This document shows, piece by piece, positions 12,767 to 21,869 of a stretch of 64,000 bases of DNA (the stretch's first letter is position 1; each line of letters opens with the position of its first letter). This DNA is from a methanogenic archaeon mixed culture ISO4-G1 (GTDB lineage Archaea > Thermoplasmatota > Thermoplasmata > Methanomassiliicoccales > Methanomethylophilaceae), in assembly GCA_001563305.1 (NCBI GenBank), contig CP013703.1:496001-560000 (forward strand), read 5' to 3'. Made by a program: the position numbers and the translations under genes. The notes beneath the pieces are model-generated. The model was not told the DNA's origin. It ran no database searches and worked only from the letters and a program-made list of their open reading frames with translations.

Positions 12767-13441
12767 ATGGAAAGAACGATCACAGTGAAAGGATACGCGA
12801 AGATGAATATGCCAGCCGATATCACGTCTGTATCGGTGACCATATCCGGTAAGGAGAGCGATTTCGACAAGGCGATGGAGGCAATGATCGGGTGCACCGT
12901 GAAGATCAAGGACGCCATCGAGAAGGCCGGACTCGTCCGCAGCGAACTGAAGACATCCAACCTCTCCATAGTGCAGTCCTACCGTAAGAGGAAGATCGGT
13001 ACCGACAGGAATGGATACGATAAGTTCGAAGACGTTGAGGACGGTTTCTGCTACAAGCAGGACGTGAGCTTCGAGTTCCCAAACGACAACAGTAAGTTGA
13101 CGGACATCGTTCGCAACATCAAGGATACCGGGGTCACCCCGAAGATAGATTTCGGATTCCGCAGCAGCAGTTCAGAGACGGTCAAGAACGAACTGCTGGC
13201 ACAGTCGGCGAAGAACGCATTGGGAGAGGCCAAAGCGATAGTGGAGGCGGTGGGATCCAAGCTCGGTAAGCTCCTCAGTGTGGACAGGAGGGGAGGCTAC
13301 GATGACGACTACGTCTATAGGAGGAGGTCCATCGAATACGACGGTGATTGTTGCAAGTGTGCATCGCCATCTCTGGACATCGATCCCGACGACATTGCTG
13401 TCGGTCAGGAAGTGGTCATGACCTGGGAGATCGCAGATTGA
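12767..13441 (+). CDS. SIMPL (DUF541) domain protein
   Basis: The protein has 224 aa and opens with the family signature of an ITVKGYAKMNMPAD strand, continuing through the SIMPL fold (periplasmic BP26-like in bacteria) up to the C-terminal VVMTWEI strand. Residues ~175-200 form a charged, Tyr- and Cys-containing insertion (CCKC). No signal peptide is visible, so the protein is probably cytoplasmic here. Function in archaea is unknown. The downstream hairpin at 13455-13488 ends its transcript. Confidence 0.8.
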   Translation: MERTITVKGYAKMNMPADITSVSVTISGKESDFDKAMEAMIGCTVKIKDAIEKAGLVRSELKTSNLSIVQSYRKRKIGTDRNGYDKFEDVEDGFCYKQDVSFEFPNDNSKLTDIVRNIKDTGVTPKIDFGFRSSSSETVKNELLAQSAKNALGEAKAIVEAVGSKLGKLLSVDRRGGYDDDYVYRRRSIEYDGDCCKCASPSLDIDPDDIAVGQEVVMTWEIAD

Positions 13442-13454
13442 TTGTCGAAACAAC

Positions 13455-13536
13455 GGCGGACCCGTTTCCGGTTCCCGGCGGGTCCGCCAAATTATTGAAA
13501 AATGGCTCGTATACCACAATATACCGGCAGTATACG
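13455..13536. repeat. Shared stem-loop repeat, copy A (also terminator of the SIMPL gene)
   Basis: A 10-bp perfect stem GGCGGACCCG/CGGGTCCGCC (13455-13464/13479-13488) contains the family core GGTTCCCGGCGGGTCCGCC. It is followed by an AT-rich spacer and the dyad CGTATAC/GTATACG (13508-13514/13530-13536). Related copies lie at 15334, 17161 and 18838, always next to the ATPase genes. Confidence 0.7.
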
Positions 13537-13615
13537 GAATAACCTGAGTCAACCCTGCTCAAACTCTCTAATTCACATTGTATTGTATATTTAGGAACAG
13601 GCACAACCATCTTGA

Positions 13616-13659
13616 GTGAAAACTACCTTGTGAAAATGGTGAAAACTACCTAGTGAAAT
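13616..13659. repeat. Two direct repeats, period 23 nt
   Basis: GTGAAAACTACCT occurs at 13616 and 13639, each followed one base later by GTGAAA. The array lies between repeat copy A and the ATPase 2 iterons; its role is unknown. Confidence 0.6.
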
Positions 13660-13688
13660 GGATCCTGCACAGTTCGATTCAAGTATTG

Positions 13689-13748
13689 TCTGAATTCTAC
13701 GGCCGTATAATTACGACTAATCTGAATTCTACGGCCGTATAATTACGA
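13689..13748. repeat. Two 28-nt iterons upstream of ATPase 2, period 32 nt
   Basis: A 28-nt unit starting TCTGAATTCTACGGCCGTAT is perfectly repeated at 13689 and 13721, ending 48 nt before the GTG start of ATPase 2. The unit contains the palindromic core TACGGCCGTA. It is probably an operator array. Confidence 0.75.
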
Positions 13749-13796
13749 TTAACATGAATTACACACAATTAAATAACAACAGGACAATCCGTATCC

Positions 13797-15170
13797 GTGA
13801 AGCGCAAGATATACGATGAACTTCTTCGTTGGAAAGAGGACAAGCAGAATACCTGTCTCACGATACAAGGTCAGAGACAGGTAGGTAAGACATACATCAT
13901 CGAGAGATTTGCAGAGGACAACTATCAGCATTTCATCGAAATAGATTTCACAAGAATGCCCGAGATGGAGAAGGCTTTCGAAAGAGCAGTGGATGTCGAT
14001 TCGGTCATCAAAGAACTGTCCATAAGACTGAACGATGCCGTATTCGAACCGGGGAAGACCCTTATTTTCCTGGACGAGATCCAGGAGTGTCCTGAGGCGA
14101 GATCGTCATTGAAATGGTTTGCGAAGGACGGGAGGTACGACGTCATAGCATCGGGTTCCCTTCTGGGCGTGAGGAATACGAACGCCAAGAAAAAGAAGGA
14201 GGAGAATAAGAAACCGCTTTCACCGATGGGCTACGAGAGTGTCCTGACGATGAGGTCCATGGATTTCGAGGAATACCTTTGGGCGATCGGATTCAACACG
14301 GAGATACTGAGCGGCATCAAGAAGAAGATCGGTGCGATGGAGCCACTGGACGAATCCGAGCTGGAGGTCATGGCCTCGCATTTCCGCGACTATATGATAG
14401 TAGGGGGCATGCCCGCATCCGTCGAAGCCTTTGTTAGGACCAAACAGTATTCCGAATCGGGAAGGAAGATCGACATCATACTGGGGGATGTGATCAACGA
14501 TATCAATCGCTATAACGATCCGGTGAACGCCCTCAAGACGCAGAGGTGTTTCGAATCCATACCGGAACATCTGAGTTCCAACAACAAGAAGTTCCAATAC
14601 TCCCGTTTGGAGAAGGGTACGGGTTCGCGTGCTTCCGGTGAGAAATACTCCGAGAATCTGCTTTGGATAGAGGGCGCCGGATACGGGAACTTCTGCTACG
14701 GTCTCAATTCTCCCGAACGTCCGTTCAAACGCATAGAGGACCTGTTCAAGGTGTATCTATCGGATACGGGGATGTTGGTCAGGATGATGGGAACATCTGC
14801 GGCGATGGCCATCCATAACGACGATATCAGTTTCAATGCAGGAGCGGTGGCAGAGAATGAGATCGCAGAATGCCTTTCCAAGAGCGGGATAAGGCCGAGA
14901 TTCTATCGTAAGAATAGTGGAAAGAACCAGATGGAGATAGACTTCGTGATAGAATTGCTAGATGAATGCGTAGCGATCGAAGTCAAGTCTGGCAAGAAGA
15001 GGGAATCCCCATCGGTGGAGAAGGTCAACAAGGTATTCAACGTCGATAGAAGGATGAAGTTCGAGAATGGGAACATACTTAAGGACGAGGAGGGGATAGA
15101 GCACTATCCGTTGTTCGCCGCAGCATTCATAGATCTTCTGAAAAGGAGATATGACGGTCCTGCATTTTGA
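13797..15170 (+). CDS. AAA-family ATPase with C-terminal DUF4143 domain (ATPase 2)
   Basis: The protein has 457 aa from a GTG start. Walker A is GQRQVGKT (residues 25-32) and Walker B LIFLDEIQEC. The C-terminal part keeps a complete PD-(D/E)xK-like pattern, MEIDFVIELL...IEVKSGK, so a nuclease-like fold is preserved better than in ATPase 1. A basic stretch NAKKKKEENKK follows the sensor-like GSLLGV segment. It is flanked by shared repeat copies A (upstream) and B (downstream), and its own iterons sit directly upstream. The function of the family is not known. Confidence 0.85.
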   Translation: MKRKIYDELLRWKEDKQNTCLTIQGQRQVGKTYIIERFAEDNYQHFIEIDFTRMPEMEKAFERAVDVDSVIKELSIRLNDAVFEPGKTLIFLDEIQECPEARSSLKWFAKDGRYDVIASGSLLGVRNTNAKKKKEENKKPLSPMGYESVLTMRSMDFEEYLWAIGFNTEILSGIKKKIGAMEPLDESELEVMASHFRDYMIVGGMPASVEAFVRTKQYSESGRKIDIILGDVINDINRYNDPVNALKTQRCFESIPEHLSSNNKKFQYSRLEKGTGSRASGEKYSENLLWIEGAGYGNFCYGLNSPERPFKRIEDLFKVYLSDTGMLVRMMGTSAAMAIHNDDISFNAGAVAENEIAECLSKSGIRPRFYRKNSGKNQMEIDFVIELLDECVAIEVKSGKKRESPSVEKVNKVFNVDRRMKFENGNILKDEEGIEHYPLFAAAFIDLLKRRYDGPAF

Positions 15171-15333
15171 CGGACATTAAAAACTGACAACGCGATCGAT
15201 TCTATGATGATATGCTGATTGAGGATACGATTCAGATAGGTTCGGATAGGCCGTGATCAATCAACATCCAATCCCGGATAAGTTACCGAACTTATGCCCG
15301 TATACAGGGTATAAGTTACCACATCTTTTGACG

Positions 15334-15409
15334 TCTGGCTAATGTCTTAAGCGGTTCCCGGCGGGTCCGCTTCATTCTTAGAAAAAAAGTTAGTATACTG
15401 CAGTATACT
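15334..15409. repeat. Shared stem-loop repeat, copy B
   Basis: GTCTGGCTAATG (15334-15345) is followed by the stem-loop core GCGGTTCCCGGCGGGTCCGC (15351-15370), a spacer, and a perfect 18-nt palindrome AGTATACTGCAGTATACT (15392-15409). The interval 15171-15543 between ATPase 2 and a small gene holds nothing else I can name. Confidence 0.65.
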
Positions 15410-15543
15410 CTGATTATATCTCGAAAACCACCTTTGTCAGTATGAAACAAACGGCGGGTAACGATTATCGTTGAGACAATGCTATTTAGAAAGTACCGGA
15501 AGTCTATGATATGATAATAAAATTGTAGATAATTGTGGTATAT

Positions 15544-15681
15544 ATGACTGAGAAATCCGAACCTAGGTCTGTTCCAAAAGAGATTTCTCCGTATGGAGGA
15601 CTCGAAGATCTTACTGATGAACAGATCGAGAAGAATATCCGGGATTGTCCATACGTCATGGGAAAGCTCAAGGATTGCTGA
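15544..15681 (+). CDS. Small hypothetical protein, 45 aa
   Basis: An ATG reading frame encodes a hydrophilic product starting MTEKSEPRSVPKEISPYG and ending MGKLKDC, with two Cys. The ribosome-binding site is weak (TGTGGT). The amino-acid composition looks protein-like rather than random. It lies between ATPase 2 and ATPase 3 and is unrecognised; it may be a remnant. Confidence 0.4.
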   Translation: MTEKSEPRSVPKEISPYGGLEDLTDEQIEKNIRDCPYVMGKLKDC

Positions 15682-15806
15682 GGTGCGTATTGCACTTCAG
15701 CCAGTTTCGATCTTAGTTCTTTCGTCTTTTCCTGATGCCTTGGGCGAAGGTAAGGGTGCAGTAGACCTGTTACCACAAAGCTGGCACGGGAGATAGGGCA
15801 TACCCT

Positions 15807-16988
15807 TCACGCAATATCCATTCCACAGAGCCAGTCAATAACGTTGACGACATCGATCCCGTCGTAGGAACCGAGGCCGATGCGGTCCTCGGTCAGAACG
15901 ATCTTCCGGTAATTATCCGGGACATTCTCCAATGGCGTCAGCTCCCTTTTCTTCGTTTGTTCGGCATGCATGGTCTGGGTCACCTGATAGTAGATAATCT
16001 TGTCACCCTTCATGGCGGTGAAATCTATCTCGGAATCGTTGTAGCTCCCTACTGATACCTTGTAGCCTCTCCTGAGCAGTTCGAAATACACGGCATTCTC
16101 CAAGGGTTTGCTGAGATCCGCCAGGCTGCCGGGGTTCAGTAACATGTATCTCATCCCCAGGTCGGTAGCGTAGTATTTCCCCTTGGATTTCAGGTATTTC
16201 TTCCCGACGATGTCATATCTGTCGACATGATAGAACAGATGAGCGGAGACGATCTCGTTCATGAACCTGTAGACATCATCCTTAGGTATGTTCAGTGCCT
16301 CGGATATCCTGTCCGGATTGGTAACGTTGCCTATGTTGGAGTACAGGAACCTGCATATGGCGTCCAGTCTTCTTGTGCTGCCGGATATGCGGGACATTAT
16401 ATCCTTCATCACCACGGTGTTGAACACCCCCTCCGATTGATACATGCATACGGATTCCCCCCTGTCCGGATCTATCATCGGCAATCCGCCGAATTTCAGA
16501 AAGTCTTCCAATCTTTTCTCCTTCTCGCCCGGATGCAGTTCCATATACTCCTTGAACGAGAGGGGCAGGATCTCGATCTCGATGTATCTTCCGGACAGTT
16601 TGGTGGACAATTCGGAGGAGAGCATCTTGGAATTGGAACCGGTGATGTAGACATCGCAGTCCCCTCTTGCGACCAGCATAGCCACCAGCCTTTCCCATCC
16701 GTCCACATCCTGTATCTCGTCTATCAGGATGTAATGCATCCCTTTCCTTTCGAGTACCGGTTTTATCTGTTCATGGAGCCAGTTTATATTCGGTTCATCG
16801 ACCAGGAGATCCAGATTGATGTGACAGATGTTTTCCTCGTCTGTGTCCATCGAACGAAGACGGCCTACGAATTGGTTGAGCACAGTGGTCTTCCCAGTGC
16901 GTCTCATCCCCGTTAGGACCTTGACCGTACTGGGCATGTCCTTGGACGATGTCAAGACAGCCAGATAATCTTCTCTGATGATCTCCAT
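15807..16988 (-). CDS. AAA-family ATPase with DUF4143-type C-terminus (ATPase 3)
   Basis: The protein has 393 aa, shorter than its three paralogues. Walker A is GMRRTGKT (residues 27-34), Walker B ILIDEIQDV, and a GSNSKML sensor-like segment follows. A small winged-helix-like stretch lies at residues ~200-250. The C-terminal nuclease-like motif is degenerate: SEIDFTAMKG is followed by YYQVTQT where paralogues have EVK, so catalysis there is unlikely. Directly upstream are two imperfect 24-nt repeats (17017-17080). The role is unknown. Confidence 0.83.
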   Translation of the reverse strand: MEIIREDYLAVLTSSKDMPSTVKVLTGMRRTGKTTVLNQFVGRLRSMDTDEENICHINLDLLVDEPNINWLHEQIKPVLERKGMHYILIDEIQDVDGWERLVAMLVARGDCDVYITGSNSKMLSSELSTKLSGRYIEIEILPLSFKEYMELHPGEKEKRLEDFLKFGGLPMIDPDRGESVCMYQSEGVFNTVVMKDIMSRISGSTRRLDAICRFLYSNIGNVTNPDRISEALNIPKDDVYRFMNEIVSAHLFYHVDRYDIVGKKYLKSKGKYYATDLGMRYMLLNPGSLADLSKPLENAVYFELLRRGYKVSVGSYNDSEIDFTAMKGDKIIYYQVTQTMHAEQTKKRELTPLENVPDNYRKIVLTEDRIGLGSYDGIDVVNVIDWLCGMDIA

Positions 16989-17016
16989 GATCGTACATGT
17001 CTCTCTGCGTATTAAA

Positions 17017-17080
17017 AAATTCTGATTTTTCAGAATTAATTAGGTATTCAACAAATAAATTCTATAATTCCAGAAATAAT
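17017..17080. repeat. Two imperfect 24-nt repeats upstream of ATPase 3, period 40 nt
   Basis: AAATTCT...CAGAATTAAT at 17017-17040 and AAATTCT...CAGAAATAAT at 17057-17080 match at 18 of 24 positions. The first copy is also a dyad, AATTCTGA/TCAGAATT. They lie 29-92 nt upstream of the ATPase 3 start. Confidence 0.6.
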
Positions 17081-17160
17081 CGGATAACTGCCAACAAGTG
17101 TATGCAGGATCTTAAACAAAGGATATGTGATAACAATTGCCCGTTTCGTTTTGGAAGATA

Positions 17161-17250
17161 ATGTACTGGATTGTCCCCAAAAATGGGGTATAATGTACCT
17201 TCGATTTTTCTGTCTGGCTAATGCTATAAGCGGTTCCCGGCGGGTCCGCC
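17161..17250. repeat. Shared stem-loop repeat, copy C (long form)
   Basis: A 90-nt unit, nearly identical to copy D over its first ~80 nt: GTAC...CCCCaaaaatGGGG...GTAC, then GTCTGGCTAATGCTATAAGC, then the GGTTCCCGGCGGGTCCGCC core. It lacks the distal GTATAC dyad seen in A, B and D. It occupies the 17081-17314 gap between ATPase 3 and ATPase 4. Confidence 0.7.
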
Positions 17251-17314
17251 AATATTGTTAGCCAGCATCGATTTTTTCAAGTGCATCAAATATTGGTATT
17301 CGATTCACCAGGGA

Positions 17315-18667
17315 TTATACGCGACCTATCAATCCGGTCATATAAATCGGAATATACAGTATCTCGTTTTCTTCTTTCAGGTTCCTGGGGGATATCATTA
17401 TACTGTGGTGGATCTCCTTTTTATGTTTCGATATGAACGCATCAAGAGATGCATGGGATGAGGTGGAAGAGGATTTGACCTCGACGGGGCAGATCTTCTT
17501 ACCCGAAGGGATCAAGAAATCCACCTCATATCTGTGTTTGGAGTCTTTTTTGGGGAACGTGTGGTAGAATAGTTTGTATCCTGCTGCTACCAGACTCTGT
17601 GCTACCGCGTTTTCGTATACATAACCTAGGTTGGCCGGAAGTCTCCCCCTCACCAATGCCGTATAGATGACATTATCTGAAAACTCCCTATCATAGAAGC
17701 ACAGTGTGACGAATAATCCTGTGTCCTCAAGGAACATCTTGAATTTCTCCATTTCCTGTGTCATCGGAAGACCGACCTTTGGATCATCCACGTGCATACT
17801 TTGCTGTACCGTCTGGGAATCCACCATCTCCGAGATGCGTTTTATCTCTCTCCTGATGGTTTTACCTTTGACCCTGAAACGCAGACTTTGGCGCGAGAGT
17901 TCAGAGGGAATCGACATGAAATACATGCCGAGGGAACCGCTCGGATCAATCTTACGGAAATCATCGAGGTAGAGGTTGAGGATATCCCTTTTTATCTTGT
18001 CAATCTCCTGGTAGCTCCTGCCTTCTGTGAACAATTTCACCGCCTGTGGCATTCCGCCGACAGCGAGGTATTCGTTGTAACGCAGCATCATCGTATGATG
18101 TACAGCACCGGATAGCGGTTTCCTGTCAATCAGGTCCTGTTCTAGCAACCTGTAGCTGTGGTTTCCGCAGGCCCAGAGGAACTCTTCGAAATCCAGCGGG
18201 TGAAGTTTCATCTTCTCCTCCTCACTGGGTATTACGATGTCCTTCACGTTCTTTCTGATCGAGATCAGGGAGCCTGTTTCTATGTAATCATATCTGCCGT
18301 CATTGACTAGTGCCTTGATAGATTCCCTTGCCCTGGGGAACCTCTGGACCTCGTCGAATATTATCGCGGTATCGCGTTCTTTGAATTCCACTCCGGTCAG
18401 GACTTGAAGTCTTCTGAGAAGGCGCGTAATGTCGCTCAAGTCATCGAATAGGGCATTGATATCCTTGTTCTCTTTCGAGAAATCAATTAGTACGTATGAG
18501 TGATACTCCTTACGTGCGAATTCTTCGACAAGTGTGGATTTCCCTACACGTCTCGCACCTTCCACAAGCATCGCTGTGGCTCCGTTGGACCTCTCCTTCC
18601 ATTCCTTGAGGACAGTGTAAGCCTTTCTCTCGAACACCCGTGGCGAATCTGATGAGTGGTCAGTCAT
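17315..18667 (-). CDS. AAA-family ATPase with C-terminal DUF4143 domain (ATPase 4)
   Basis: I start the protein at the Met at 18667 (450 aa, MTDHSSDSPRVFE), because an upstream in-frame Met would put the repeat array inside the coding region. Walker A is GARRVGKS (residues 37-44) and Walker B TAIIFDEVQRF. The C-terminus keeps a PD-(D/E)xK-like pattern, RYEVDFLIPSG...CPVEVKSS. It is a paralogue of ATPases 1 and 2. Shared repeat copies C and D flank it, and three private iterons with an exact 33-nt period precede it. Confidence 0.83.
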   Translation of the reverse strand: MTDHSSDSPRVFERKAYTVLKEWKERSNGATAMLVEGARRVGKSTLVEEFARKEYHSYVLIDFSKENKDINALFDDLSDITRLLRRLQVLTGVEFKERDTAIIFDEVQRFPRARESIKALVNDGRYDYIETGSLISIRKNVKDIVIPSEEEKMKLHPLDFEEFLWACGNHSYRLLEQDLIDRKPLSGAVHHTMMLRYNEYLAVGGMPQAVKLFTEGRSYQEIDKIKRDILNLYLDDFRKIDPSGSLGMYFMSIPSELSRQSLRFRVKGKTIRREIKRISEMVDSQTVQQSMHVDDPKVGLPMTQEMEKFKMFLEDTGLFVTLCFYDREFSDNVIYTALVRGRLPANLGYVYENAVAQSLVAAGYKLFYHTFPKKDSKHRYEVDFLIPSGKKICPVEVKSSSTSSHASLDAFISKHKKEIHHSIMISPRNLKEENEILYIPIYMTGLIGRV

Positions 18668-18690
18668 AATTCCATTTAGTGTATAGATGG

Positions 18691-18773
18691 TATTTGTCTG
18701 TTTTCCCAAAATTTTTAAATCGATATTTGTCAAGTTTCCCTGAATTTTAAAAGATTGAAATGTCGTTTTTCCC
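18691..18773. repeat. Three iterons upstream of ATPase 4, exact 33-nt period
   Basis: TATTTGTCTGTTTTCCC (18691-18707), TATTTGTCAAGTTTCCC (18724-18740) and a third copy ending GTCGTTTTTCCC at 18773. The CCC ends are spaced exactly 33 nt apart. The array starts 24 nt upstream of the chosen start codon. The remaining 18668-19062 interval holds repeat copy D and AT-rich sequence. Confidence 0.7.
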
Positions 18774-18837
18774 ATTAATTAGAATTGTTTTCAAGGAATA
18801 TCAACTTGCACCAATCCCTATGGTTGTGCCCTAAATA

Positions 18838-18975
18838 ATGTACGGGATTATCCCCCAAAATGGGGTATAATGTACCTTCGATTTTTCTGTCTGGCTAATG
18901 CTATAAGCGGTTCCCGCGGACCCGCTCATTTCATCGAAAACAGGCTGTATATCGCAGCATACCGGCAGTATACAG
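18838..18975. repeat. Shared stem-loop repeat, copy D
   Basis: It carries the same upstream GTAC...CCCCCaaaatGGGG...GTAC and GTCTGGCTAATGCTATAAGC blocks as copy C. The GC core then appears rearranged (GGTTCCCGCGGACCCGCT, partly inverted relative to C). The distal dyad CTGTATA/TATACAG (18945-18951/18969-18975) shares ATACCGGCAGTATAC with copy A. Confidence 0.7.
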
Positions 18976-19078
18976 GAATCATTCTATTGCATCTCCTCTC
19001 TGGTTATTTTGATTAATAGCATAAATATGCGAGTAATCAAATTTTTATGAATTATTTACATAGGTAATGTGATACTTT

Positions 19079-19747
19079 TTAGTTGATGTTTTGTCTATAA
19101 AGAAAAGACATCAACTCCGTCATCCCCCAAACATGGTCGGTCAGACCCAATTTCATCGCAGGCGTGACATCCACGCGTTTGCCACCGTTCTCCTTCTTCC
19201 GGATCGAAATCGAAGAGTGCGGAAGACAGAGGTTGTAGTAGCCTTTGAACAGATCCAGACCTGCCTGCACGGCCTCCCTGGATTTACCGAAGGTCACCGT
19301 TCTGCGCCTGATCCTCGCATTGAACAGCCTGATCGTCAGGTTCTGCCTCTCGATTGCCGACGTGTTGAGAAGGTGTTCCGGTACGTCGCCGAAGGCGACA
19401 TACCGTCTCACCTTCTCCAATTTCTTGCCCAGGCGGGTCTTCTCCACTACACCGTAGTTGAAGTCAGAATTGGGCTCCAAATGGCTTCCCGGGCGTCCGC
19501 GTCCGTTGTTGTACACGCGATAGCTGTACCTCTTGAAAAGAGTGGTCAGATATGGTCTGTAGCCGTCGGTTACGAAATACGGCATGTGGTTGCGCCTAAG
19601 CTTGTCTAATTCGGTGTTGACGATGCGTTCGCAGACGGCCTTTCCTCTGCCGTCGGCGACAATACCCAGCAGATACTTTTCGGTGGCACAGAAGGAGGTC
19701 CAGATCCAGTCCCCGTCCTCTTTGAAATGGTCCCCCACGAAAATCAT
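19079..19747 (-). CDS. IS1-type transposase catalytic part (InsB-like)
   Basis: The protein has 222 aa. The DDE pattern of IS1 is visible: an N-terminal Asp in VGDHFKEDGDW, YFVTDGYRPYL in the middle, and TSAIERQNLTIRLFNARIRR followed by VTFGKS carrying the Glu. The frame is joined to the upstream HTH frame at CTAAAAAAAACATGA: an A8 run suits a -1 slip, as in IS1 InsAB', and the HTH stop and InsB ATG also overlap (ATGA). It appears intact. Confidence 0.85.
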   Translation of the reverse strand: MIFVGDHFKEDGDWIWTSFCATEKYLLGIVADGRGKAVCERIVNTELDKLRRNHMPYFVTDGYRPYLTTLFKRYSYRVYNNGRGRPGSHLEPNSDFNYGVVEKTRLGKKLEKVRRYVAFGDVPEHLLNTSAIERQNLTIRLFNARIRRRTVTFGKSREAVQAGLDLFKGYYNLCLPHSSISIRKKENGGKRVDVTPAMKLGLTDHVWGMTELMSFLYRQNIN

Positions 19748-20168
19748 GTTTTTTTTAGAGTATATAAAAGCTCATCGAATTGGAGGCTCTCGGGGGCCAC
19801 ACCCTTCGATTCCAGACTGGCCGAGACCTTAGCAACATGCTCTCCGCCGCGTTTCGTACGCTTCTGCACGGTCCTGACCGTGCAGCCGACGATGTCGGCC
19901 GTCCTCCGGACGCCAACCCCGTTGGCCTGACAGGCCATGATCAGATTGTGCTCCTCCTTGGTCAGGTGGGTATCTCATAAGCTGTGCCAGTACGGTCGTT
20001 GAACACGCGTCCGCAGGTCTTACATTTGTATTTGCGCACGGTCCCTGACTTCGTCTGATAGGTCCCGTTCGCTATGATGTTCTGCTCCCCGAGTCTGCCG
20101 AAATTCCTGCATTCCTCGTTCGGGCACGAGATCTCCAAGAACTTCTGTTTAGGCCCTCTTTCTCCCAT
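19744..20168 (-). pseudogene. IS1 InsA-type zinc-finger/HTH region, frameshifted
   Basis: The first frame (20168-19962) encodes MGERGPKQKFLEISCPNEEC and a second Cys pair, CKTCGRVFND, an InsA-like zinc ribbon, and stops after TAYEIPT. The helix-turn-helix continuation (LTKEEHNLIMACQANGVGVR) lies in the -1 frame down to 19744. No slippery heptamer is evident at the break near 19962-19975, so this is probably an inactivating indel or an assembly error. Confidence 0.7.
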
Positions 20169-20303
20169 CTTGATCATCATAAACGATATGGGAGTATAAA
20201 TATAAAATATCAACTAAAAAGTATCACATTACCATTTACATAAATCCACGATTAATAAAAGATTTATACATACAATGTCCTGTTAACAGAAGTTAATATC
20301 GAG

Positions 20304-21567: not shown

Positions 21568-21642
21568 GGACAGGTGGCCTAGCTTGGATATGGCGGCAGC
21601 CTCCTAAGCTGCAAGCCGAGGGTTCGAATCCCTCCCTGTTCG
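21568..21642 (+). tRNA. tRNA-Arg (anticodon CCT)
   Basis: Acceptor GGACAGG/CCTGTTC (one G-U pair), discriminator G, anticodon arm GCAGC-CTCCTAA-GCTGC, and T arm GAGGG-TTCGAAT-CCCTC. CCA is not encoded. The 3' half is the likely attachment site of a former integrated element. Confidence 0.93.
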
Positions 21643-21869
21643 CTTATTTTTCCTTCATGCTGGATATTCGTATCCCCATACCATGAATTCACGACATAAT
21701 CAAGAGCGGACACGTTGCGCACACGGGCATAATAGTTCTCGGTGGTCCTCGAAGAGGAATGACCGAGGAGCACCGAGATGACATCGATGGGGATCCCTTC
21801 GTTCTTCATGCGAACTTCCTGAGATTGTGTTTCGAAGTTATATTGCATAATATAGCAAACACTACTCAA
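21579..21869 (-). pseudogene. C-terminal remnant of a tyrosine recombinase at tRNA-Arg
   Basis: The segment NEGIPIDVISVLLGHSSSRT followed by TENYYARVR matches the C-terminal box of phage/XerC-type integrases, including the LGHSS motif and the catalytic-Tyr region. The N-terminal two thirds are absent, and the frame runs antisense into the tRNA 3' half. This is what remains after integration and decay of a mobile element. The upstream junction abuts the toxin-like pseudogene. Confidence 0.7.

Follow-up and report, generated by a model that had tools for sequence, protein, structure and literature searches.

The repeats that lie between and around three ATPase genes of the methanogenic archaeon ISO4-G1 are very probably the attachment (att) sites of small mobile gene cassettes, which are probably moved in trans and which in most carriers are inserted at tRNA-Arg(CCG). 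The last 15 nt of the repeat core (TCCCGGCGGGTCCGC) are identical to the 3' end of tRNA-Arg(CCG). This tRNA origin of the core, which an earlier note on the same DNA had missed, makes the repeat an att site. The features of the array are listed in Table 1 with positions in the window, i.e., the whole 64,000-nt stretch of DNA that was analyzed.

Table 1. Features of the cassette array, numbered from the first nucleotide of the window
Feature	Position	Strand	Remarks
SIMPL/DUF541 gene	12767..13441	+	last gene left of array; Pfam E 3.7e-20
att A core CCGGTTCCCGGCGGGTCCGC	13468..13487	+	left junction of array; secondary non-tRNA site
Cassette 1, 1883 bp, terminal att B	13488..15370	+	
AAA_14/DUF4143 ATPase, PDC-S01 type (cassette 1)	13797..15170	+	
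att B upstream arm, repeated ATAAGTTACC	15276..15350	+	alignment
att B core GCGGTTCCCGGCGGGTCCGC	15351..15370	+	
Cassette 2, 1879 bp, terminal att C	15371..17249	+	
45-aa ORF, coding status doubtful	15544..15681	+	
AAA_14/DUF4143 ATPase, PDC-S01 type (cassette 2)	15807..16988	-	
att C upstream arm, ATAATGTACC variant	17156..17229	+	
att C core	17230..17249	+	
Cassette 3, 1676 bp, terminal att D	17250..18925	+	
AAA_14/DUF4143 ATPase, PDC-S01 type (cassette 3)	17315..18775, start possibly 18667	-	
att D upstream arm	18834..18906	+	
att D core, inner 10 bp inverted (GCGGACCCGC)	18907..18925	+	
Cassette 4 remnant	18926..20286	+	first ~181 bp of 395-aa ATPase cassette

Repeat structure and array layout

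The repeat consists of a conserved arm of ~75 nt and a core. Three copies of the core GCGGTTCCCGGCGGGTCCGC occur in the window, where 0.00 were expected, and a search for GGTTCCCGGCGGGTCCGC with up to two mismatches returned only A, B, and C across the whole ISO4-G1 genome. The altered core of D was seen only at D among the 100 genomes searched. The four repeats are thus real and all confined to this array in a genome of 1,593,503 bp; scattering over the genome, which the earlier note had named as a possible refutation, was not observed. C and D are near-identical as the note had claimed (96% over 82 nt), and B and C share 63% identity. The assignment of all four copies to one family holds for the core and the downstream part, which are common to A, but not for the upstream arm of B, C, and D, which A lacks. 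The GTATAC dyads reported in A, B, and D are indeed present and located after the core. The rearrangement of D was likewise recovered: GCGGGTCCGC is replaced by its reverse complement GCGGACCCGC, minus one G. Ahead of the core of att A, GGCGGACCCG completes a perfect 10-bp stem, and a perfect GTATACTGCAGTATAC is found at 15393-15408.

The three AAA_14/DUF4143 genes lie where they had been placed before (Table 1). The fourth cassette is interrupted by an IS1-like element (19063-20233, with a 9-bp duplication) and has lost its ATPase gene; the cassette from which it derives is present in G024, G028, and G136. An Rfam scan of the window yielded three tRNAs and no other family.

Insertion at tRNA-Arg(CCG)

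In most genomes that carry the repeat, the array begins at the tRNA-Arg(CCG) gene (G028, G136, G105, G051, G044, G138, G026, G018, contig C5 of G024, and G030). Empty and filled versions of one orthologous site were identified among relatives. The gap between the tRNA and an aminotransferase gene measures 104-180 bp in three genomes (G027, G015, and G013) and 1.9-4.7 kb in six (G018, G030, G011, G024, G008, and G012), and the upstream genes are the same in both sets. The 3' end of a tRNA gene as insertion site, the att repeats, and the empty sites of relatives are all features of tRNA-targeting integrative elements. In addition, the core variant tracks the host tRNA: it is GACGGGC in G018, G024 (contig C5), and G030, and GGCGGGT in G028, G136, G105, and G044.

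The ISO4-G1 array occupies a non-tRNA site. The core of the native tRNA-Arg(CCG) differs at two positions in this genome (CCCGACGGGCCCGC), and no second core was detected in the 3.6-kb gap at this tRNA. Cassettes of the GGCGGGT type probably went to a secondary site. No empty version of this secondary site was found among relatives, and no att site lies beside the SIMPL orthologues of G011, G003, G018, G017, and G001; in G018, another gene is next to the orthologue.

Cassettes are shared from core to core

Each cassette starts just past one core, includes the following core as its right end, measures about 0.7-1.9 kb, and contains one gene or operon. Individual cassettes reappear in different genera and in changed order, mostly with 87-98% identity. 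From core to core, cassette 1 shares 94-95% identity with cassettes of G136, G138, and G044, and its ATPase shares 98-99% amino acid identity with L046, L038, and L053. The copy of G136, a member of another genus, is 94% identical at the nucleotide level, whereas two tRNA-flanking proteins are 44-49% identical between these genomes, a difference that points to transfer of the cassette. Cassette 2 is 96.6% identical to a cassette of G024 (contig C8) over 1454 bp, with the first ~430 bp differing, and its ATPase shares 98% amino acid identity with L063_3260.

We aligned shared cassettes with 600 nt of flanking sequence supplied on each side (16 alignments). Twelve of the 16 begin 10-22 nt ahead of the end of the left core, mostly exactly 15 nt before it, which is the length of the identity to the tRNA. 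On the right, 13 of the 16 stop within the interval from 3 nt short of the core to 4 nt beyond it, contig ends limiting the test for two of these 13. Most of the exceptions involve neighbors whose arms are similar; one pair is syntenic. Homology that starts within the left core and stops near the right core is a signature of site-specific recombination. Moreover, each cassette type has a fixed orientation relative to the core, such that the cassettes are bounded by one recombination site each, as in integron and CALIN arrays. The earlier proposal that cassettes are gained, exchanged, or excised by way of the repeat is strongly supported by this switch of homology within the core and by the recurrence of reordered cassettes; gene order, whose conservation in all relatives would have spoken against it, differs between them.

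Within the Methanomethylophilaceae, 18 of the 102 genomes carry the repeat, and it was found in none of 45 genomes from other families of the order; the relatives are mostly MAGs, and several arrays end at contig ends. In a viral collection, no contig presented the arm and core pattern, one contig matched the tRNA-end pattern, and the exact core matched once, in a GC-rich, unrelated-looking contig. Core matches in Streptomyces, Haloferax, and others were taken as chance.

Cargo

Most of the cargo consists of toxin-antitoxin pairs and of ATPases that are candidates for virus defence. Cargo types comprise DUF4143 ATPases, a DUF234 ATPase, DUF6290-ParE pairs, a Schlafen/AlbA protein, and others. 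A restriction of the repeat to DUF4143 genes was not supported, since all these other types use the same site. Nor was the earlier proposal of the 45-aa ORF in cassette 2 as cargo supported; the ORF exists, but it has no Pfam or NCBIfam match and no homologue in the loci compared. The ATPase of cassette 1 presents a Walker A motif (GQRQVGKT), a Walker B motif (LIFLDEIQ), and an EIDF...EVK motif; the EVK motif is degenerate in cassette 2 (YQVT). No close solved structure was found for the ATPase by sequence.

The DUF4143 ATPases match the PADLOC defence candidate PDC-S01 (best E values of 6.7e-120, 6.5e-122, and 5.7e-98 for the three in the window) and the DUF234 ATPase matches PDC-S27. In the paper describing these candidates, all of them still unvalidated there, PDC-S01 is reported to rank fourth in frequency among the defence systems of prokaryotes, and the accessible text gives no cassette or tRNA-array carrier (PMC12988326). 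The array represents a concrete vehicle for the spread of PDC-S01 in gut methanogens, and the core plus arm constitutes a marker for locating more defence cassettes. ISO4-G1 was described without plasmid, prophage, or CRISPR (PMC4824259), and the cassette array may therefore constitute a notable share of its mobile and defence genes.

Recombinases and proposed mechanism

No integrase was detected among the scanned cassette proteins and no PF00589 gene lies inside the array, which suggests that mobilization probably occurs in trans. In being att-bounded units without a recombinase, the cassettes resemble cis-mobilizable elements. ISO4-G1 has only three PF00589 matches, two of them far away and one a fragment at another tRNA. 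One recombinase of 339 aa, probably part of an HsdS inversion system, lies between HsdS-like genes; another, of 320 aa, is located beside tRNA-Glu(CTC). Neither was tied to the array. Among relatives, an integrase adjoins tRNA-Arg(CCG) in G001, and G029 has one 55% identical to it at a distance of 0.86 kb from an att site. These two are candidate recombinases for the cassettes; the pairing of integrase and att is uncertain because G001 and G029 have the integrase on opposite sides of the core.

We propose that a virus or plasmid provides a tyrosine recombinase in trans, which would excise cassettes as circles. These circles would insert at the tRNA 3' end, restoring the core sequence, or at another core, so that arrays would lengthen by tandem addition. 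Putative arm-type binding sites are the upstream arm, with its repeated ATAAGTTACC or ATAATGTACC, and the downstream GTATAC repeats. The host probably benefits by acquiring and storing genes for antiviral or addiction functions. More tentatively, the arrays may represent an independently evolved archaeal integron-like platform, in which a tRNA serves as platform, att sites with arms derive from it, visiting elements provide the tyrosine recombinase, and gut methanogens share a pool of largely single-gene antiviral and addiction cassettes.

Alternative explanations and known systems

It is unlikely, but conceivable, that the arrays are tandemly integrated tRNA-targeting viruses or plasmids, each reduced to one or two genes. 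Elements commonly integrate in tandem at tRNA genes, G001 has an integrase-bearing element at tRNA-Arg(CCG), and degenerate sites and one truncated cassette are present. However, several genera share the short cassettes in intact form, identical over their full length, an outcome that independent decay would not produce, and the cassettes move as small units. Far less probable is a role of the repeat as a transcription terminator or interspersed repeat, with homologous recombination between copies shuffling the cassettes. The core is able to form a hairpin and a T-run lies some 25 nt downstream in C, but this explanation leaves three observations unaccounted for: insertion at tRNA 3' ends with empty sites in relatives, absence of the repeat elsewhere in the genome, and the match of the core to the host tRNA. 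The earlier suggestion that the repeat may end each transcript is not required to explain the array.

We also consider it very doubtful that the array is a true integron or CALIN, with attC cassettes moved by an IntI integrase. The layout, the single-gene cassettes, and the toxin-antitoxin cargo agree with this possibility, and archaeal integrons are on record (PMC9668308). Nevertheless, exchange takes place in TCCCGGCGGGTCCGC, with no GTT/AAC triplet of an attC core, the target is a tRNA gene, and no IntI with an adjacent attI adjoins it. Single repeat copies fold somewhat better than shuffled ones, and RNAalifold on the repeat alignment gave little covariation support for a hairpin.

The ISO4-G1 array and its relatives are best classed as integron-like tandem arrays of cassettes that have no integrase. 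CALINs lack IntI by definition. The earlier statement that no described system has this organization was too strong, with integron/CALIN arrays and integrase-less tandem islands being close analogues. Integrons and CALINs (integrase-less attC arrays), which include archaeal ones (PMC9668308; PMC11389934), similarly present tandem single-gene cassettes with one recombination site each, common cassettes whose order varies, cargo of toxin-antitoxin and defence genes, and integrase-less arrays that need mobilization in trans. They differ in that the site here consists of the 3' end of a tRNA together with flanking arms rather than attC, the target is tRNA-Arg(CCG) rather than attI, and genes lie on either strand. 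The ssrA genomic islands of Dehalococcoides likewise stand in tandem, with repeats of an RNA-gene 3' end between the units, and many units have no recombinase; 15 islands without an integration module were suggested to be cis-mobilizable elements (PMC3146451). Those islands rely on a serine integrase and contain larger multigene modules (PMC3146451), whereas the units described here contain one gene or operon and are common across genera. Elements integrated at archaeal tRNA genes share the tRNA 3' end target, the att repeats, and tandem integration, but known ones are described as proviruses, plasmids, or cryptic elements that comprise several genes and usually include an integrase (PMC8371274; PMC6563490). 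Our results suggest that integron-like arrays can arise from plain tRNA-targeting site-specific recombination.

Repeat structure and tRNA origin

The genes and repeats that we observed match the description in an earlier note, three DUF4143 ATPase genes with four repeat copies between and around them; the note proposed that the repeat may bring about exchange of cassettes. The genome-wide search suggested there covered the whole genome of ISO4-G1 (1,593,503 bp, one contig), a methanogenic archaeon from sheep rumen (PMC4824259), and located the core of the repeat in this array only. Using 121 nt around copy C as the query, we detected other Methanomethylophilaceae in which the repeat occurs in clusters. 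In one relative (G010), the DNA seen after copy A in the window directly adjoins the 3' end of a tRNA-Arg(CCG) gene, and tRNA scans revealed that this gene heads most arrays. The tRNA ends with TTCGAATCCCGGCGGGTCCGC and the repeat with GCGGTTCCCGGCGGGTCCGC, so that both have the sequence TCCCGGCGGGTCCGC in common.

Features of the array and its right side (window positions)
Feature	Position	Remark
Core A	13468-13487	
Core B	15351-15370	
Core C	17230-17249	
Core D	18907-18925	
Cassette 1	13488-15370	
32-bp tandem repeat	13689-13752	two copies (97%)
Cassette 2	15371-17249	
Cassette 3	17250-18925	
IS1-like element	19063-20233	just after att D
Tyrosine recombinase C-terminal fragment	21568-21869	overlaps tRNA-Arg(CCT)

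A conserved arm of ~75 nt, located upstream of the core, contains ATAAGTTACC twice and then GTCTGGC (alignment A1); a minority of arms present two copies of ATAATGTACC instead, again followed by GTCTGGC. The GTATAC dyads of the earlier note correspond to GTATAC repeats that open many cassettes, downstream of the core. Copy D alone has the inner 10 bp of its core inverted between 4-bp inverted repeats. In one class of cassettes the core is directly followed by TTCAGATTCAGGTTCGAATCC, which forms the cassette start and resembles a T-arm hairpin (locus L053 5877-5910 and loci L065, L038, L026, L046, L067 and L260).

Distribution and insertion site

With a sequence model built from 24 sites, 18 of the 102 family genomes proved to carry the repeat, representing 4 of 14 genera, and the 45 genomes searched outside the family but within the order gave no hit; these large searches ran with stricter filters and can miss weak copies. 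The genes upstream of tRNA-Arg(CCG) are the same in nearly all compared genomes. The gap between the tRNA and the next gene, an aminotransferase, is 104-180 bp in G027, G015 and G013 and 1.9-4.7 kb in G018, G030, G011, G024, G008 and G012. ISO4-G1's own tRNA-Arg(CCG), at 1,039,898, is separated from the aminotransferase gene by 3.6 kb (L159 10307-13899), a stretch that contains a 701-aa open frame and no second core.

Where the tRNA ends with GACGGGCCCGC (G018, contig G024:C5 and G030), the cassettes at the tRNA have the same core, and hosts whose tRNA ends with GGCGGGTCCGC likewise have cassettes with the core GGCGGGTCCGC. ISO4-G1, G024 and G012 possess a GACGGGC tRNA and nevertheless harbour GGCGGGT cassettes, which lie in arrays elsewhere than at the tRNA (the G012 array sits at a contig end, which makes its site less certain), as would be expected if recombination needs matching cores. 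The pairing is mixed in G026 and G138.

Cassettes as moving units

Cassettes found in more than one genome align from one core to the next. Because this comparison was cut at the cores, the alignment was redone with 600 nt of flank for 16 pairs. In twelve alignments the start lies 10-22 nt ahead of the end of the left core, the commonest value being exactly 15 nt, the length of the tRNA identity; 13 end from 3 nt before to 4 nt past the right core, a contig end being the limit in two of these. For most deviating pairs, the explanation is that the neighbouring units have similar arms or, in G018 and G030, that these close relatives are syntenic. These alignments indicate that cassettes move as units. 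The left neighbour of cassette 1 varies: in G136 it is a tRNA, in G044 a cassette with an aldo-keto reductase, in G138 a unit of 204 bp and in ISO4-G1 a site that is not a tRNA. The ISO4-G1 copy of this cassette shows 94-95% nucleotide identity to those of other genera, whereas ISO4-G1 and G136 share only 44-49% identity in two tRNA-adjoining proteins. Cassette 2 has its last 1454 bp in common with G024 (96.6% identity) and differs over its first ~430 bp, where the G024 counterpart holds an NTP_transf_2 (minimal nucleotidyltransferase) reading frame. Such frames occur in G024 cassette heads at L063 4508-4822 and L069 8022-8336, and are possibly half of a toxin-antitoxin pair. The 32-bp tandem copies, which belong to the first ATPase gene's leader, are also present in G010 cassette DNA (L074).

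DUF4143 ATPases are the commonest cargo. Each of the three window ATPases matches PADLOC PDC-S01 models; outside the array, ISO4-G1 has nine other DUF4143 matches above cut-off. Further cargo comprises a DUF234 ATPase matching PDC-S27, DUF6290-ParE pairs and one Schlafen/AlbA_2 protein. In G044, genes for FMN reductase, LysR and aldo-keto reductase are carried as well; the cassette boundaries there depend in part on two weak sites.

Candidate recombinases and known systems

No recombinase was found among the cassette proteins scanned. Two integrases are candidates for acting on the att site: a 348-aa protein adjoining tRNA-Arg(CCG) in G001 and, at 55% identity to this one, a 341-aa protein encoded 0.86 kb away from an att site in G029. 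Since the two are on different sides of the core, their link to the site is only suggestive. ISO4-G1's own three PF00589 matches all have other likely explanations. One 339-aa tyrosine recombinase is flanked by two HsdS-like genes that contain repeated segments (G000:C1:1584094-1584576, L156), and the arrangement is probably a type I restriction specificity inversion system.

The layout is similar to that of an integron or CALIN, but tests for attC and IntI were negative. Dehalococcoides ssrA islands also combine tandem repeats derived from an RNA gene with integrase-less units (PMC3146451). We found no description of this array in the open-access literature; most subscription papers fall outside that search.

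Right end of the array

Copy D is followed by 137 bp of the 395-aa ATPase cassette, then by the IS1-like element, which has a 9-bp duplication, and then by another 53 bp of that cassette, whose ATPase gene has been lost. A 98.9% identical element lies directly after tRNA-Arg(CCG) in G011 (L266 8639-9774), and the element may favour this AT-rich DNA. The recombinase fragment further right is a remnant of a different integrated element.
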